From a virus: a stretch of DNA of 31,316 bases. Made by a program: the position numbers and the translations under genes. This document shows positions 6,804-18,152 of the stretch, piece by piece. A model generated the notes under the pieces. The model ran no database searches, was not told the DNA's origin, and saw nothing but the letters and a program-made list of their open reading frames with translations. Within the stretch, counting starts at the first letter, position 1. Each line of letters begins with the position of its first letter. Where the stretch lies: positions 1-31,316 of the IMG/VR virus record IMGVR_UViG_3300042560_001656; one strand, 5' to 3'.

Positions 6804-7691
6804 TTACTTCACGGACACAGAGTTCGCCTCGGCGGCCAAGCAATCGCCGTGGCATCGCTGCGGATAGCAATGGCACACAAGCACCTTGCCGGTCAGATCA
6901 CCAGACTCGATACGCTCCGTGATCGACGGCTTGTGTGGCAGATAGTGCCGCTCATAGGCATCGCACACCTCGTCACGGTCGCCGTCTTCGTTAAGCACAA
7001 ACGGATTTCCGTACTTCGTACTGCGGTCGATGCGGACCGCCAGCTGCTCGCCTTCAGCCCAAGCGATGAGGTTTTTGTCGGCTGAAGCATTGGCCACAAC
7101 CGTCAGGCCAGACTGCACTTCAGCCTGGCGGTCCCGTTCGTCCTTCCGCCAATCGTCTGTCGGCTTTTTGGCTACCTCGCGCTTTGCGTCCTGAAGCGTG
7201 ATCTTCCCGGCTTTGAGCCGCTCGAACACCTCTGGGGCTTCCTGTTTGACCTTCTTGGCGTCGGACACATAGCGGTCGTTCACGCCGACCGACGCGGCAG
7301 CCTCTTCGCGTGCCTTTCTCGGCGCTTGTTGTGGAACTTTTTCCACAACAGATTCACACTTCGGCTTCCGAATCTGCCTCCTCTTCGCGTCGGCCGCGAA
7401 GTGTGGCTCGAGCTCGGCCGCAACCGCAGCCAGCGCCCCTTTGTTCATGTGCCGCCGGCGGTCGTTCATCGCCACGGCAAAGGCAGTCGGCTCGTCGCCG
7501 GTGTATTCCTTTGTCTTCGGATCTACGCCGGCGATCTTGCACGCCGCGTATCGGTTCCGGCCGTCGAGGATCTTGCCATCGTACAGCCAGACCGGAACGA
7601 GCTGGCCGTTCTTGCGGATGTCGTCGGCAAGCTCGCGGAGCTTGTCCTCTTCCATCATCGGCCACACGTCGGCTATCGGGTGGTGTTTCAT
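6804..7691 (-). CDS. ParB-like domain fused to DUF4326
   Basis: A 295-residue two-domain protein. The N-terminal ~90 residues are ParB-like: HPIADVWP, ELADDIRKNGQLVPVWLYDG and LDGRNRYAAC. A lysine- and arginine-rich middle follows. The last ~80 residues fit DUF4326: VRIDRSTKYGNPF, a HYLPH segment and a cysteine/histidine end VCHCYPQRCHGDCLA. DUF4326 has no established biochemical role. ATG at 7691 overlaps the HNH stop as ATGA, so the start is secure. The fusion suggests that DUF4326 acts on DNA or a nucleotide-linked substrate; that is inference. Confidence 0.85.
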   Translation of the reverse strand: MKHHPIADVWPMMEEDKLRELADDIRKNGQLVPVWLYDGKILDGRNRYAACKIAGVDPKTKEYTGDEPTAFAVAMNDRRRHMNKGALAAVAAELEPHFAADAKRRQIRKPKCESVVEKVPQQAPRKAREEAAASVGVNDRYVSDAKKVKQEAPEVFERLKAGKITLQDAKREVAKKPTDDWRKDERDRQAEVQSGLTVVANASADKNLIAWAEGEQLAVRIDRSTKYGNPFVLNEDGDRDEVCDAYERHYLPHKPSITERIESGDLTGKVLVCHCYPQRCHGDCLAAEANSVSVK

Positions 7692-11174: not shown

Positions 11175-11389
11175 TCTTCGCCTCCCTTCTCGGCGTGCTC
11201 GTCGATTGCAACGCACAACCGCAGCACGACCTCCGGTGGAATCACGTAATGACCCTTCATCCCTGTGTGCCGCATCCGCTGCACGAGCAGCCGCGCGACC
11301 TTCACCACCTCGACCGCTTTGGCGTAGCGGTAGGACAGTCGCCCTACGCTTTGCCTCTGCTCACCCGTCCGAATCGCCCGTGGCAACAT
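11165..11389 (-). CDS. Small hypothetical protein, 74 aa
   Basis: A basic, helical protein (YRYAKAVEVVKVARLLVQRM, then VIPPEVVLRLCVAID). I chose ATG at 11389 because GGAGG lies 8-9 bases upstream; ATG at 11413 would add 8 residues. Either start overlaps the end of csrA (11361), so translation is coupled. It precedes the ATPase gene. Function unknown. Confidence 0.6.
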   Translation of the reverse strand: MLPRAIRTGEQRQSVGRLSYRYAKAVEVVKVARLLVQRMRHTGMKGHYVIPPEVVLRLCVAIDEHAEKGGEEWD

Positions 11390-11591
11390 CCGTGGTGCCC
11401 TCCGTGTAGACATGCAGTTCCGGCAGTTCGTCCCGCCGCACGAGCACCGCGGCCGGTGCCGTGATGCCGAGCTTGGCCACAGGCCGGCCGCTGGCCAGCT
11501 TGCGGATGTCGGTCACCATGACGTCGATCCGGGTGCCGTCGGGGCAGGTGAGCACCAGCCCCTCGTCGATCTTCCTGCTCAAGATCAGCAC
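11361..11591 (-). CDS. csrA: CsrA/RsmA-family RNA-binding regulator
   Basis: A 76-residue homologue of the carbon storage regulator, which binds GGA motifs in mRNA leaders and alters translation and stability. The first strand LILSRKIDEGL keeps the RNA-contacting L4 and R6; the middle has RIDVMVTDIR; and KLGITAPAAVLVRRDEL covers the second RNA-binding patch (R52/R53). A 20-residue acidic tail follows. Start is GTG at 11591 with GGAGG 8 bases before; it overlaps the upstream gene by 7 bases. A phage copy could redirect host gene expression or control phage operons. Confidence 0.85.
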   Translation of the reverse strand: MLILSRKIDEGLVLTCPDGTRIDVMVTDIRKLASGRPVAKLGITAPAAVLVRRDELPELHVYTEGTTDVATGDSDG

Positions 11592-14039: not shown

Positions 14040-14405
14040 TCAGTCTACCTTGCTCGCCATCTGCTCCAGCTGCACCCGCCAGGACGGCGTGCTCCACCAC
14101 AGGCCGAGGAGCACCTGACAGATAGCCGACGTCGTGCCGGCAAGGAGCATCGGCCACAGCGGCCCGACGCCGTGGGCCGCCTCCCACCGCTCGCGGACCT
14201 GTGCCCGCACGAGCGTGAGCACGTGGTCGATCGCCTTGTGGTTCTCGCCGCCGAGCCGCTCGATGTCCTCGAGGTGGCGGCTTGGCCAATGGCGGACCAC
14301 CAGCCGCGTCAGTTCGTCCACCCGCCAGGATTGCGCGTAGTGGACCCGGGAGCCGAGCGTGGCCCGGACGTGGGCCTGGAGCGAGGCGAGGCCGTCGTCG
14401 GTCAC
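14040..14405 (-). CDS. Small membrane-associated protein, 121 aa
   Basis: The last gene of the late operon. A charged helical N-terminal part (residues 1-75, with HLEDIERLGGENHKAIDHVL) is followed by one hydrophobic segment of about 20 residues (GPLWPMLLAGTTSAICQVLL, about 80-100) and a short polar tail. One membrane pass is likely. GTG start overlaps the upstream stop as GTGA. A role in lysis or in the envelope is inferred from its neighbours only. Confidence 0.65.
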   Translation of the reverse strand: MTDDGLASLQAHVRATLGSRVHYAQSWRVDELTRLVVRHWPSRHLEDIERLGGENHKAIDHVLTLVRAQVRERWEAAHGVGPLWPMLLAGTTSAICQVLLGLWWSTPSWRVQLEQMASKVD

Positions 14406-14692
14406 CGCTGCCCTCCCGTCACGGCTTCGCGGATTTCACGCTGGGCTTCGGCCAACTCGCGGAGCGTCTCGGATTGCCGCTCCTGGGCACGACCGAGGCC
14501 CTGGAGAGTTTCGCTTGTCTGCTTGAGGAACGTCGCGTGCGATTCGACGACAGGCACGACGACGGTGTGATGGAGCGCGGTCGCCGCCTCGCGGGCGCAA
14601 AACAGCACCACGCTCGCGACGACCACAGGGAAGCCGAACTCTCGGGCGATACGGATGCCGACGTCGATCGCGTCGCTCGTCTTTTGTGTCAC
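14402..14692 (-). CDS. One-helix membrane protein with coiled coil, 96 aa
   Basis: After a short polar start comes a hydrophobic stretch (FGFPVVVASVVLFCA, about residues 19-33), then a long amphipathic charged helix (about 55-92, LKQTSETLQGLGRAQERQSE) that should form a coiled coil. The shape resembles small phage membrane proteins such as spanin-like or holin-associated proteins, but no family match is claimed. The GTG start overlaps the previous stop as GTGA. Confidence 0.65.
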   Translation of the reverse strand: MTQKTSDAIDVGIRIAREFGFPVVVASVVLFCAREAATALHHTVVVPVVESHATFLKQTSETLQGLGRAQERQSETLRELAEAQREIREAVTGGQR

Positions 14693-14991
14693 TGGTCGTC
14701 CTCCCACCACTTCTTCACAAGTGCCTGCACGATCGCCCCGATGGCCCACCACAGGAGCATGGTCATGAACGCGAACCCCGCCCGCTGGGCGTATTCGTCG
14801 CGGACCTGACGCTCCACTTCCGACCGGATGTATCGCGTGGTGTTGCTGCCGCGGGCTGCCACCATCACGCGGTCGGGCGGCATCTTGCTGCGGGCCGTCG
14901 AGACGATCTCGTCGCACCGCTCGCGGCCGAGCATGGATCGCCGGATCGGGTGGCGGGCCAGCTCGGCCCACACGTAATCGGCGTCGGTCAT
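14689..14991 (-). CDS. C-terminally anchored small protein, 100 aa
   Basis: A cytosolic-type charged domain (MTDADYVWAELARHPIRRSM ...) ends in one hydrophobic segment (FAFMTMLLWWAIGAIVQALV, about residues 73-92) and a short charged tail KKWWEDDQ. This is a tail-anchored layout, seen in some holins, but one helix does not prove the function. ATG overlaps the upstream stop as ATGA. It sits between the trypsin-like protease and two more membrane proteins. Confidence 0.65.
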   Translation of the reverse strand: MTDADYVWAELARHPIRRSMLGRERCDEIVSTARSKMPPDRVMVAARGSNTTRYIRSEVERQVRDEYAQRAGFAFMTMLLWWAIGAIVQALVKKWWEDDQ

Positions 14992-15761
14992 CGCTCGCAC
15001 CTCCCGTCCCGGCAGACGGCGGCGGCCACCGGCTGGCCCATCATCCGCCGGATCTCGGCGACATGGCTCCCGGCAGTCAGTCCGCCGGTCGATCCCCACA
15101 GCACCGCGACCACCTCGCCGCGGGCGTTGAAGATCGGACCGCCGGAGTCGCCCTGCCGGGCCGCGGCACGAACCTCGACCATGTGCATGGGGTGCCGGCT
15201 TGGCCCGACGAACTGGGTCACCTCTCCGCTCGCCTCGCGGTAGACGAACGGCACCGGCCCGTAGCCGGCGAGCGTCAGCCGGTCGCCGACGGCCGGGGGC
15301 CGGGCCGCGATCGGCACCGGGGCGGCGGCGGGGGCCGCGGTCGAGAGGACCGCCAGATCCCAGGCGGAATCCCACGCGGTCACGCGGGCCGTGCCGCTCG
15401 TGCCATCCGGCCAGCGGATCGTGATCGCGTTCCGGCCGTCGCGGACCACGTGCCAGGCGGTGAGCACCTTCGCCCGGCCGTCACGGGCCTCGACGAGCAC
15501 GCCGCTGCCGCAGTCGCGGGACGGGCCTGCCCCGCACTCGATCCGGCAGACGGCGGGCCGTGGGCCGGGGGCGGCGGCCGCGGCCAGGGGCGCCGGCGGG
15601 TCGGGCAGCTCGCCGGCACCGTCGCACACCGGGCACGCAAACCGCACCGGGCCGGGGCCGACGACGCGGTCGCCGTGGCAGTTGCCGCACGGGGCGGCCG
15701 CGGCGGTCGCGCAGAACAAGGCGAAAAACAGCGCGAGGAAAGGGGATTTCATGGGTTTCAC
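14988..15761 (-). CDS. Secreted trypsin-like serine protease with zinc-finger-like N-terminus
   Basis: A 257-residue protein with a signal peptide (KSPFLALFFALFCATAAAA, cut near residue 23). Next comes CGNCHGDRV...CPVCDGAG (about 25-50), two CxxC pairs in the style of DnaJ zinc fingers. Residues ~70-230 form a chymotrypsin-fold domain with the complete triad: H104 (TAWHVV), D135 (WDLAVL) and S206 (QGDSGGP). It should act outside the cytoplasm. GTG at 15761 overlaps the upstream stop; ATG at 15752 is an alternative. A secreted serine protease is rare in a phage late operon. It may help release, or process envelope proteins. Confidence 0.85.
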   Translation of the reverse strand: MKPMKSPFLALFFALFCATAAAAPCGNCHGDRVVGPGPVRFACPVCDGAGELPDPPAPLAAAAAPGPRPAVCRIECGAGPSRDCGSGVLVEARDGRAKVLTAWHVVRDGRNAITIRWPDGTSGTARVTAWDSAWDLAVLSTAAPAAAPVPIAARPPAVGDRLTLAGYGPVPFVYREASGEVTQFVGPSRHPMHMVEVRAAARQGDSGGPIFNARGEVVAVLWGSTGGLTAGSHVAEIRRMMGQPVAAAVCRDGRCER

Positions 15762-16630
15762 CCGGCGGGCCGGCTCCAGTCATCGGGGAGAGTCACGGAC
15801 GCCACGGCGAACGATCCCTGCCACGCGGACTTGGCGGTCCGCTCGGAGTCGTAGCGCACGATGTCATACGAATCCGGATAGGCCATGAGCCGCTGGTCGG
15901 GCATCCACCGCGCCCACGGCACCGCGTGCCCATTGCGGCCCACGCTCACGACGTAGCCGTGGAGCACGAGGCACACGGCCTGCTCATAGGACTCCGGGAA
16001 GATCACCTCCAGCGGGCGGAAGTTCTTCGCCGTCTCCTCCCACCCGTCAGGGAACCGCGAGACCGGCGTCCACGGGCCGCGCGACTGGTTGAATCCGCCC
16101 TTGCCGGCCGTCCCCGGCATCGCGTGCTTGAACTGGTAGTCGTAGGGCTGCACCGTCTCCGGCAGCATCCCCCGGCGGACAGCGATTTCCAGGACGCGCC
16201 GGACGTTCGCTCCGCCCCACTGCCGCGGGTTGGCCTCGGCCAAGACCGAGAGCGGCGACAGCCAGACGGACCCGAACTCGCGCGACTCGGGGTAACGGTA
16301 GTCCACCCGTGGCCCGCCGTAGTTCACGCCCCGCGCCCGGTTGCGGGCGGCCTCGACGTTGGCCCGCAGACTGTGACAGGTGCATTCGTGGGTCGGGTTC
16401 TGGTTGGTGAACCTGTCGATAAAGTTCATCCCCCACGCCCCGGCCGCGTCGTTCTCGCGGGCCTTCGCGACCCAGTCGCGCGGCTCGATCCACAGGGCCT
16501 CCGGGAACTCACGCGAGGCGTCGCCGCAGGCATCGCGCAGGGCGTCGGGCGTGTCCTCGATCGCGAGGCTCGCCGGGTAGCCGTCGTGCTCGGCCGGGAA
16601 GACGTCGATCAGGCGCGGGTCGATGGTCAC
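15758..16630 (-). CDS. Papain-like (C1) cysteine peptidase-like protein
   Basis: A 290-residue protein. NQNPTHEC places Q77 exactly six residues before C83, the spacing between the oxyanion Gln and the catalytic Cys in papain-type peptidases. GHAVPWARW supplies a His (H235) in the usual GHAV-like context. The third residue (the Asn of an NSWG-type motif) is not obvious, so activity is uncertain. No signal peptide is seen. GTG at 16630 overlaps the upstream stop as GTGA. It lies directly before the secreted serine protease, so both may belong to one envelope-directed function; a virion-structural role is an alternative. Confidence 0.68.
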   Translation of the reverse strand: MTIDPRLIDVFPAEHDGYPASLAIEDTPDALRDACGDASREFPEALWIEPRDWVAKARENDAAGAWGMNFIDRFTNQNPTHECTCHSLRANVEAARNRARGVNYGGPRVDYRYPESREFGSVWLSPLSVLAEANPRQWGGANVRRVLEIAVRRGMLPETVQPYDYQFKHAMPGTAGKGGFNQSRGPWTPVSRFPDGWEETAKNFRPLEVIFPESYEQAVCLVLHGYVVSVGRNGHAVPWARWMPDQRLMAYPDSYDIVRYDSERTAKSAWQGSFAVASVTLPDDWSRPAG

Positions 16631-16995
16631 GGCACGGCCTCCATCACCGCCGCCTCGCTCCCCGGCCGCGGCGTCACCCGGAGCACCGTCCGGCCGGCCA
16701 GGGCGACGACGGCCGGGAGCCCCGCTTTGCGGGCCGCATCCAGGGCGGCCCGGTACTGGTCCGGAACGTCGCCGTCGCCGTCGGTCGTGTCGTCCTCGAA
16801 GAGCGTGGCGACCACCTTCCGCTCACGGTTGAGCCGGTTGATCGCGACGGCCACGAACGGCGGCACGCCGCCGTCGTCCTTCTCGTAGACGTAGACCGCC
16901 GCCGTCGCGGACCCGCTCGTGTCCACGCGGCCCCACTCGACGCGCGGCAGCGTCAGCAGCAGAAGCCCGGCGGCGATGCAGGCGAGCGGTCTCAC
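16627..16995 (-). CDS. Small secreted or periplasmic protein, 122 aa
   Basis: Starts with a signal peptide-like sequence (RPLACIAAGLLLLTLPRVEW). The mature part alternates short strands with acidic loops (FEDDTTDGDGDVPDQY) and ends with VVALAGRTVLRVTP. The acidic loop could bind calcium, but it does not match an EF-hand fully. The GTG start overlaps the upstream stop as GTGA. It precedes the papain-like gene; no known domain. Confidence 0.65.
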   Translation of the reverse strand: MRPLACIAAGLLLLTLPRVEWGRVDTSGSATAAVYVYEKDDGGVPPFVAVAINRLNRERKVVATLFEDDTTDGDGDVPDQYRAALDAARKAGLPAVVALAGRTVLRVTPRPGSEAAVMEAVP

Positions 16996-17231
16996 GACTG
17001 CGGGGCCTCCGGCTTCAGCAGCTCATGCGTGAGCTGCTCGCACACGGCCACGGCATCGGTGTGCCCCTTGTCGCGGAGCCGGGCCGCGAGGTCGATCACC
17101 AGGCGGAGGTCGTCCACCGGCGTTCGGGTCCGCCGGCCAAGCCGGCCGCGGAGCTGCTGCACACCCACCACCACGCCGTAGCCGACGAGGCCGGTGGCGA
17201 TCACGATCTGGGCCAGGGTCAAGTAGTTCAT
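16992..17231 (-). CDS. Single-pass membrane protein, 79 aa
   Basis: An N-terminal membrane segment (TLAQIVIATGLVGYGVVVGV, residues 4-23) is followed by a basic stretch (LRGRLGRRTR) and a helical cytoplasmic tail. The positive charges after the helix suggest an N-out orientation. ATG overlaps the upstream stop as ATGA. Size and form would suit a holin-like or anchoring protein; unproven. Confidence 0.65.
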   Translation of the reverse strand: MNYLTLAQIVIATGLVGYGVVVGVQQLRGRLGRRTRTPVDDLRLVIDLAARLRDKGHTDAVAVCEQLTHELLKPEAPQS

Positions 17232-17479
17232 GTCTGCTCCATGTCGGCGGCTTTGTCGGCGATCCATCCCGCGAGGGCCGCACCCTGCGGAGTCTTTAGG
17301 ACGGCCGCGACGTGAGCCGTCAGTTCGTCATCCAGCCGGCTGCCGGTCTTGCTCGCGAGCCACTCCAGGGCGTCGGCGATCACCTCGGCCCGCTGGCTGT
17401 CGTCGGCGGCGGCCGACAGCCGCCGGCCGTAGCCGAGCAGGGGAGCCCATTCCACGAGGAGCCGGACGTTGTCGAGCAT
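17228..17479 (-). CDS. Small helical protein, 83 aa
   Basis: A soluble helical protein with LSAAADDSQRAEVIADALEW and a later AHVAAVLKTPQGAALAGWI segment. Start and upstream stop share one base (TGATG). No domain is recognised. Its central motif of paired helices recalls the second half of the upstream neighbour, but I cannot show a relationship. Confidence 0.6.
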   Translation of the reverse strand: MLDNVRLLVEWAPLLGYGRRLSAAADDSQRAEVIADALEWLASKTGSRLDDELTAHVAAVLKTPQGAALAGWIADKAADMEQT

Positions 17480-17856
17480 CAGGCCCTCACGAGTGAGAGG
17501 ACCTGTTCCACCGCACCGGCAGCGAGGGCCACGACGAGCGATCGAACCGCTGGCCGGGCGAGCATCCACACCGGCCAGAGGACCGTGGGAACGGCCTTGT
17601 CGGCGACGGCGTCGAAAAGGTCGGCCACAGCGACCAGCACGGCGGCCTTCTTCGCCTCGCCACTCATTTCCTTGACGTCTTCGTAGCTCTCGACCAGCAA
17701 CCGCACGAGGGCCAGTGACAACTCGCCGAACTCCCGCCACGTCAGGCCGTCGGCAGCCGCGGACTGGGCGGCATAGATGAAGGCAGCCGCCCGGGCGATC
17801 GGCCCGGAGGCGGGGAGGTGCGAGGCGACGGCGACGGGGGCATCGGAAACGCTCAT
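17479..17856 (-). CDS. Helical protein with hydrophobic C-terminus, 125 aa
   Basis: Residues 20-80 are amphipathic helices (WREFGELSLALVRLLVESYE). The C-terminal 45 residues are strongly hydrophobic (VPTVLWPVWMLARPAVRSLV and VVALAAGAVEQVL), enough for one or two membrane passes. The ATG overlaps the previous stop as ATGA. Possible holin by position in the late cassette, but a soluble helical bundle is also possible. Confidence 0.62.
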   Translation of the reverse strand: MSVSDAPVAVASHLPASGPIARAAAFIYAAQSAAADGLTWREFGELSLALVRLLVESYEDVKEMSGEAKKAAVLVAVADLFDAVADKAVPTVLWPVWMLARPAVRSLVVALAAGAVEQVLSLVRA

Positions 17857-18128
17857 TTGATCAGTCCCTTTTCGTGCAGTTCCTTGGCCTGGGCGGGCGT
17901 GCAAAACGGCACGAGCGCCTTCGATGGATCACCGCCTGCCCCGGCCAGCGTGAGGGAGAGGTAGTAGTAGAAGTCGCGGTCCACGCCCTTCTTGCTCGTG
18001 ATCGTCCCGATGCCGGCCCGTCGGAGCGGCTGGTAGTGGACGTGCTGGCTCGTCTCGCCGGCCGGGGCCATCGCCTCCCGGCCGGTGGCCGTGCGGCGGA
18101 ACATCGACTCCTCGACTCGTCCGCTCAC
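17853..18128 (-). CDS. Small hypothetical protein, first gene of the envelope module
   Basis: A protein of about 91 residues with a basic N-terminus and a middle FYYYLSLTLAGAG, ending in FCTPAQAKELHEKGLIK. I chose GTG at 18128, 7 bases after GAGGAG; GTG 18134 and ATG 18104 are alternatives. It begins a new block after a hairpin (18176-18198) and a TACAAT box, so its promoter may be its own. Function unknown. Confidence 0.6.
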   Translation of the reverse strand: MSGRVEESMFRRTATGREAMAPAGETSQHVHYQPLRRAGIGTITSKKGVDRDFYYYLSLTLAGAGGDPSKALVPFCTPAQAKELHEKGLIK

Positions 18129-18152
18129 AGCCACGCTCCTCGGTTCCGTTTC

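Follow-up and report, generated by a model that had tools for sequence, protein, structure and literature searches.

A mobile phage gene block with two predicted proteases as a candidate proteolytic lysis cassette in a planctomycete lineage

We propose that a block of eight genes at positions 14402-17856, on the minus strand of a viral DNA fragment, is an exchangeable late cassette by which the phage lyses its host through proteolysis instead of with a murein hydrolase, the host belonging to a planctomycete lineage that probably lacks peptidoglycan. Judged from the predicted products and their genomic setting, we hold this reading to be somewhat more probable than not. That the block further represents a distinct class of lysis, a proteolytic one in free-living peptidoglycan-less bacteria, with two unrelated papain-like "endolysins" (one cytosolic, one signal-anchored) that swap with each other and with a secreted trypsin as accessory, seems to us an evenly balanced possibility. 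Lysis by double-stranded DNA phages is understood as the combined work of a holin, a murein hydrolase and a spanin, and if the lysis reading is true, the system is of a new kind, showing lysis adapting to wall loss, with enzymes that point to protein as what holds the envelope together. If it is false, an obligate and swappable dual-protease block in phages of a bacterial family without transpeptidases would still be undescribed. Within the scope of our literature search, which left out preprints and most subscription papers, neither a comparable system nor any account of how planctomycete phages lyse their hosts or of a lysis cassette built on proteases was found.

The gene block and its predicted products

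The window, by which is meant the whole stretch of DNA analysed (IMG/VR virus record IMGVR_UViG_3300042560_001656, 31,316 bases), has nearly all of its genes on the minus strand, and its recognisable genes encode tape-measure protein, terminase, exonuclease, dNMP kinase, Sak4, integrase and repressor. It is a fragment in which the portal and major capsid genes are missing, and the absence of a hydrolase was therefore also checked in more complete relatives. It is noted that CsrA-like regulators (Pfam CsrA) are encoded both by the window (11361-11591) and by a related prophage described below (L083:13014-13205, that is, G001:C154:33014-33205), and that the product of 6804-7691 in the window seems to consist of a ParB-like N-terminal part and a DUF4326 C-terminal part.

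The two protease genes that the preliminary description had placed at 14988-15761 and 15758-16630 are borne out at these coordinates, both on the minus strand, as are the other genes of the block and its two flanking genes. Since the block genes are open frames joined by stop/start overlaps of 1-4 bases, and since dN is smaller than dS for all of them, the block is far beyond chance; the late strand and the overlaps are consistent with late expression. The proteases had been said to lie in the lysis position. Two proteases and no lysozyme are indeed found there, but the module comes after the exonuclease and dNMP-kinase genes and does not immediately follow the tail genes. To call signal peptides and membrane segments, hydropathy and sequence were used, with no dedicated predictor.

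The 15758-16630 product, here called type A, is a papain-like protein of 290 aa with a predicted C1A-type fold and no signal peptide. It was found at 65 viral-contig loci, mostly with 71-99% identity and with 49% at the lowest. The papain-like residues noticed beforehand, Q77, C83 and H235, prove to be invariant in 22 of 22 aligned relatives down to 51% identity, and so is D253. The protein has no match in Pfam (22 members), PHROG or the PDB sequences, PDB sequence searches with the papain profiles gave nothing useful, and neither window protease has a match among GenBank phages by tblastn. With an AlphaFold2 model and Foldseek, the closest structures are peptidases of family C1A, with xylellain and cathepsin B on top (best E 5e-4) and all of the top ten matches in C1A; the TM values of about 0.44-0.47 are modest and come from a model with mean pLDDT of 69, which is weak near the active-site loops (pLDDT below 50 at residues 76-82, 120-141 and 154-190). 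Type A agrees with C1A (papain, cathepsin B, xylellain) in the predicted fold and in the Gln/Cys/His order, with a Gln-to-Cys spacing of six like that of papain, and the residue order Q-C-H-D is not permuted. Unlike C1A, it has no sequence-profile match, it has Asp253 (DSYD) at the fourth catalytic position in place of Asn (NSWG), and it has a conserved N-terminal part of its own of about 65 residues. Because the C1A fold and catalytic order are present while the sequence profile and the Asn are absent, the modelled protein would be at most a divergent relative of C1A.

The 14988-15761 gene encodes a predicted secreted trypsin-like protease of 257 aa, with a signal peptide, a CxxC...CxxC ribbon, a Trypsin_2 domain and a C-terminal CxDGRC tail. 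It matches PF13365 Trypsin_2 in Pfam over the whole domain (E 2.8e-21, 77.2 bits against a cut-off of 27.6), and the triad H104/D135/S206 given in the preliminary description is present in each of the 40 distinct full-length homologs. Six cysteines are likewise invariant in 40/40, four of them forming the ribbon after the signal peptide and two belonging to the CxDGRC-type tail. The trypsin was considered as an essential part of the block and rejected as such, being absent from five papain-bearing loci with at least 1.5 kb available downstream and from the alternative, type B cassettes described below.

Several small membrane proteins are seen by hydropathy among the remaining products, in agreement with the membrane proteins of lysis size that had been claimed for the late module. 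The first block gene (17479-17856) encodes 125 aa with two hydrophobic stretches, is a candidate holin, and is the only block gene that the type B cassette also retains. It is followed by a small conserved protein of 83 aa with no predicted membrane segment and a weak phrog_402 match (17228-17479) and by a 79-aa protein of holin-like size with an N-terminal transmembrane segment (16992-17231). At the other end of the block lie genes for a protein of 100 aa with a C-terminal transmembrane segment (14689-14991) and for one of 96 aa in which an N-terminal transmembrane segment and a coiled-coil-like tail give a spanin-like layout (14402-14692). In the window-type backbone the block is flanked by genes outside it, upstream at 17853-18134 and downstream at 14040-14405. 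No small block product has a convincing holin or spanin profile match; one "Rz-like spanin" match is weak (E 0.0072) and lies within a mixed set of small cassette proteins including that of the 14402 gene. The label "DNA ligase" (phrog_13790) on 14402-14692 is also weak, looks like a coiled-coil match and was set aside.

The 16627-16995 product (122 aa), predicted to be exported or membrane-anchored, folds like thioredoxin in its model, with mean pLDDT of 85.7 and a helix-strand order that fits, and its Foldseek list consists nearly entirely of thioredoxins, with probabilities up to 0.99 and a best E of only 6e-3. At the active-site position of thioredoxin it has YVYEKD.G.VP and no CxxC. It is the most constant companion of the papain gene: its homolog always lies next to that gene, on the upstream side, and does so even in phages of 68-79 kb that lack most of the block. 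The thioredoxin-fold part recurs as the C-terminal domain of a larger protein in another genome (G005).

Mobility of the block and exchange of its papain-like protease

The preliminary description had proposed to look for the same cassette in related phages, and it is found there. All eight genes, in the order of the homologs of 17479, 17228, 16992, 16627, 15758, 14988, 14689 and 14402, are present in 46 of 46 complete loci. The block lies at the window position in 19 loci, between the prohead protease and major capsid protein (MCP) genes in 15, and between tail-completion and neck genes in 4; some of these loci overlap or stem from near-identical contigs, so that the counts are not independent, while the three positions are distinct. 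As the gene order is the same at three different genome positions, the block travels as a unit. In L009, L010, L030 and L066 the thioredoxin-like and papain genes (the 16627 and 15758 homologs) are separated by an inserted gene of some 420-450 codons; it was considered as a possible missing endolysin and rejected, since it encodes a DNA methyltransferase. In L073 an HNH-like homing endonuclease gene lies between the papain and trypsin genes. Both are mobile genes within the block.

A scan with the MCP of the related prophage gave 75 loci, and 35 contigs hold both the prohead protease and the MCP. In all 35 the slot between these two genes contains a papain-like protease, which is that of the window (type A) in 18 and another one (type B) in 17; no slot contains both and none contains neither. 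The type B papain (e.g. L138:7955-9046) starts with a signal anchor, carries the NSW motif of papains, and has Q103, C108, H275 and N298 invariant in 14/14. Like type A, it has no profile match; by tblastn no match was found among GenBank phages, and profile comparison detected no relationship between the two types. In the type B blocks the 17479 homolog is retained and the trypsin is missing, while different small proteins, located in the membrane or exported, are present in addition. In the MCP tree the cassette type has changed at least five times, and in two cases (L153 versus L151/L190, and L147 versus L171) near-identical MCPs are accompanied by different cassette types. Moreover, L199, whose dNMP kinase is 98% identical to that of the window, has a type B cassette between the same flanking genes as the window's block. 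From this exchange of A and B and the filling of 35/35 slots, it follows that the slot obligatorily contains a papain-like protease, be it of the one kind or the other. In classical lysis cassettes, too, unrelated endolysins replace one another.

The host lineage and the search for a murein hydrolase

The single relative yielded by a genome scan lies in the MAG contig JAIXPT010000413.1, whose title is Planctomycetaceae bacterium. This relative is an integrated prophage (G001), with an integrase gene at 406-1296 and a repressor gene at 34115-34381, after which host genes follow. The adjoining host protein, of 919 aa, is matched in 70 of the 72 genomes that represent the host's GTDB family, with identities reaching 86% in genomes other than that of the G001 host, which shows the contig to be chromosomal. 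The phage of the window would infect the same family, as is suggested by the shared block and by the related integrase, exonuclease and repressor.

The penicillin-binding transpeptidase is found in none of the 72 genomes of this GTDB family, as against 117 of 119 genomes across the phylum, the two that lack it being the G001 host and G214 (9.5 Mb). On account of this absence, the gene content suggests that the G001 host lineage probably makes no peptidoglycan. The G001 host has three Mur-ligase-domain proteins, namely cyanophycin synthetase, FolC and a MurE-like protein below the NCBIfam cut-off; in the family, the genes with this domain number 1-5 per genome, mostly 2-3. No Amidase_3, SLT or NLPC_P60 was found in the host MAG. 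Its sole M23 match was discarded, being sub-threshold and within a gene that we take, from its sequence, to be that of the RNA polymerase beta subunit.

It was argued in the preliminary description that the host might rely on a protein-rich envelope as planctomycetes do. The host of the relative is indeed a planctomycete, of a family without transpeptidases, but the generalisation does not stand: peptidoglycan is present in planctomycetes generally (PMC4432640), and the idea that they lack it as a whole was rejected on this ground and on that of the 117/119 genomes with transpeptidases. The envelope argument is thus confined to this lineage. That planctomycetes have a wall of protein is an older view, which the same paper discusses (PMC4432640); the present family looks like a real exception among them, to which a protein wall may apply.

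No muramidase, amidase or peptidoglycan endopeptidase had been visible in the window, and this holds in Pfam searches. Nor does the part of the genome missing from the window appear to supply one, as judged from relatives: Pfam reveals no peptidoglycan hydrolase in G002, a near-complete relative of 36.9 kb with terminase, portal, capsid, tail, recombination and integrase genes, in the G001 prophage, where none is among the matches listed (25 of 30 families), or in the larger phage relatives G003 and G006. Targeted searches of 36 phage records, run with positive controls, gave no Amidase_3, SLT, NLPC_P60 or M23, and NLPC_P60 (PF00877) is found in 0/37 records, with controls positive in 9/14. 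It should be noted that in divergent phages such an absence is weak evidence because most of their proteins match nothing, and a divergent hydrolase may have escaped notice. The near-complete relative G002 encodes a protein with a metallopeptidase-like HEYMH motif at 31028-31696 (L085:11028-11696).

Proposed mechanism, rival explanations and known systems

The suggestion that the phage leaves or enters its host by proteolysis is strengthened by the host link, the absence of transpeptidases, the transfer of the whole block in one piece and the existence of a second papain-centred cassette, with the correction that the trypsin is not a constant part. The block has the layout of a lysis cassette, since it is exchangeable and obligate and combines small membrane proteins and exported factors with one central enzyme, cytosolic or signal-anchored. 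If the host has no peptidoglycan, the enzyme must attack some other material, and for enzymes of the papain and trypsin types this would naturally be protein. In the mechanism that we envisage, the trypsin-like protease and the thioredoxin-fold protein would be exported earlier via their N-terminal signals; the small membrane proteins, with the 17479-17856 product as prime holin candidate, would then damage the inner membrane and thereby release the cytosolic papain-like protease; together the proteases would cut the protein layer that gives the envelope its strength, and the membrane and coiled-coil proteins would complete the disruption. In the type B cassette the signal-anchored papain-like protease would stand in its place. 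Lysis itself, the substrate, the holin and spanin roles and the order of events are what we infer.

The first of two main alternatives is that the block encodes virion or morphogenesis proteins, the papain processing structural proteins or being packaged in the particle and acting on these or on the envelope at entry. Such a role would be in line with the lack of a signal peptide in type A and with the location of the block, which in two of the three backbones (15 and 4 loci) is surrounded by head or tail genes and shares the strand of the structural genes. However, a part matched to the particle would hardly be swapped between types A and B beside near-identical capsid proteins, nor would one block be expected to serve three unrelated positions and backbones; moreover, there is already a prohead protease besides these enzymes, export signals are borne by the trypsin, the thioredoxin-fold protein and the type B papain, and several block products are predicted membrane proteins, so that we consider a virion role fairly unlikely. 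The mobility and swapping of the block, its membrane and exported products, and its closeness to integrase and repressor genes, these phages being temperate, could also be accounted for by the second alternative, a moron that acts in lysogenic conversion, superinfection exclusion or surface counter-defence through proteolysis of host or rival proteins. Morons are often swapped, but they are typically patchy, whereas here 35/35 slots hold one of the two types; in addition, the genes form part of late-strand operons with tight overlaps and these phages have no other candidate lysis enzyme, which makes a moron unlikely.

Lysis might instead be ordinary, with the papain-like protein being a peptidoglycan hydrolase of the NlpC/P60 or CHAP type, or with a hydrolase hidden among the small genes. 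The NlpC/P60 and CHAP enzymes do have the papain fold, and divergence is a feature of phage genes. In phage tail modules, as in those of Tyroviruses, papain-like amidases of permuted order are known, which act on peptidoglycan at entry (PMC9703825). They have in common with the block papain the papain-like fold and the link of a phage gene to the host envelope, but the block papain shows no permutation, and the mobile block that encodes it is located away from the tail module. Against a hidden hydrolase, the NLPC_P60 profile finds nothing in the 36 phage records, Foldseek ranks C1A papains and not NlpC/P60 or CHAP, and the Q-C-H-D order is unpermuted. Furthermore, with transpeptidases absent from the host family, and Amidase_3, SLT and NLPC_P60 from the sampled host, murein is an unlikely target. 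Ordinary lysis of this kind therefore appears to us quite improbable.

Coming back to lysis by proteolysis, the block resembles the holin-endolysin-spanin cassette of the lambda S/R/Rz/Rz1 type in being a compact late block with small membrane proteins around one enzyme. As in the classical cassettes, the enzyme is swapped for an unrelated one at the same place, and the cytosolic and signal-anchored versions parallel the holin-dependent and SAR endolysins. Unlike the lambda-type cassette, it has predicted proteases of protein and no murein hydrolase that we could find, a host family without transpeptidases, an extra secreted trypsin and thioredoxin-fold protein, and a holin and spanin without homology support. 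We do not file it as a member of the holin-endolysin cassettes because the defining murein hydrolase was searched for and not found. The PeiW and PeiP enzymes of methanogen viruses are pseudomurein endoisopeptidases of family C71 that cut pseudomurein cross-links; as is proposed for the block papain, they are cysteine peptidases that serve in the lysis of a host without true murein, but they belong to that different family. The phage enzymes may serve as probes for the envelope of a family apparently without transpeptidases, by which the wall question becomes testable.

With the secreted serine peptidases of Trypsin_2 (PF13365), the block's trypsin has the full triad and the whole-domain match in common, and it differs from the others in the four-cysteine ribbon at the front, the CxDGRC tail and the mobile phage block as its home. 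The C-terminus of the type A trypsin, C-x-D-G-R-C-x-R/K, resembles the CPDGRCPPKR end of a small exported cysteine-rich protein of the type B cassette (L199:4116-4541), and the two proteins possibly share an export or anchoring tail in these hosts.
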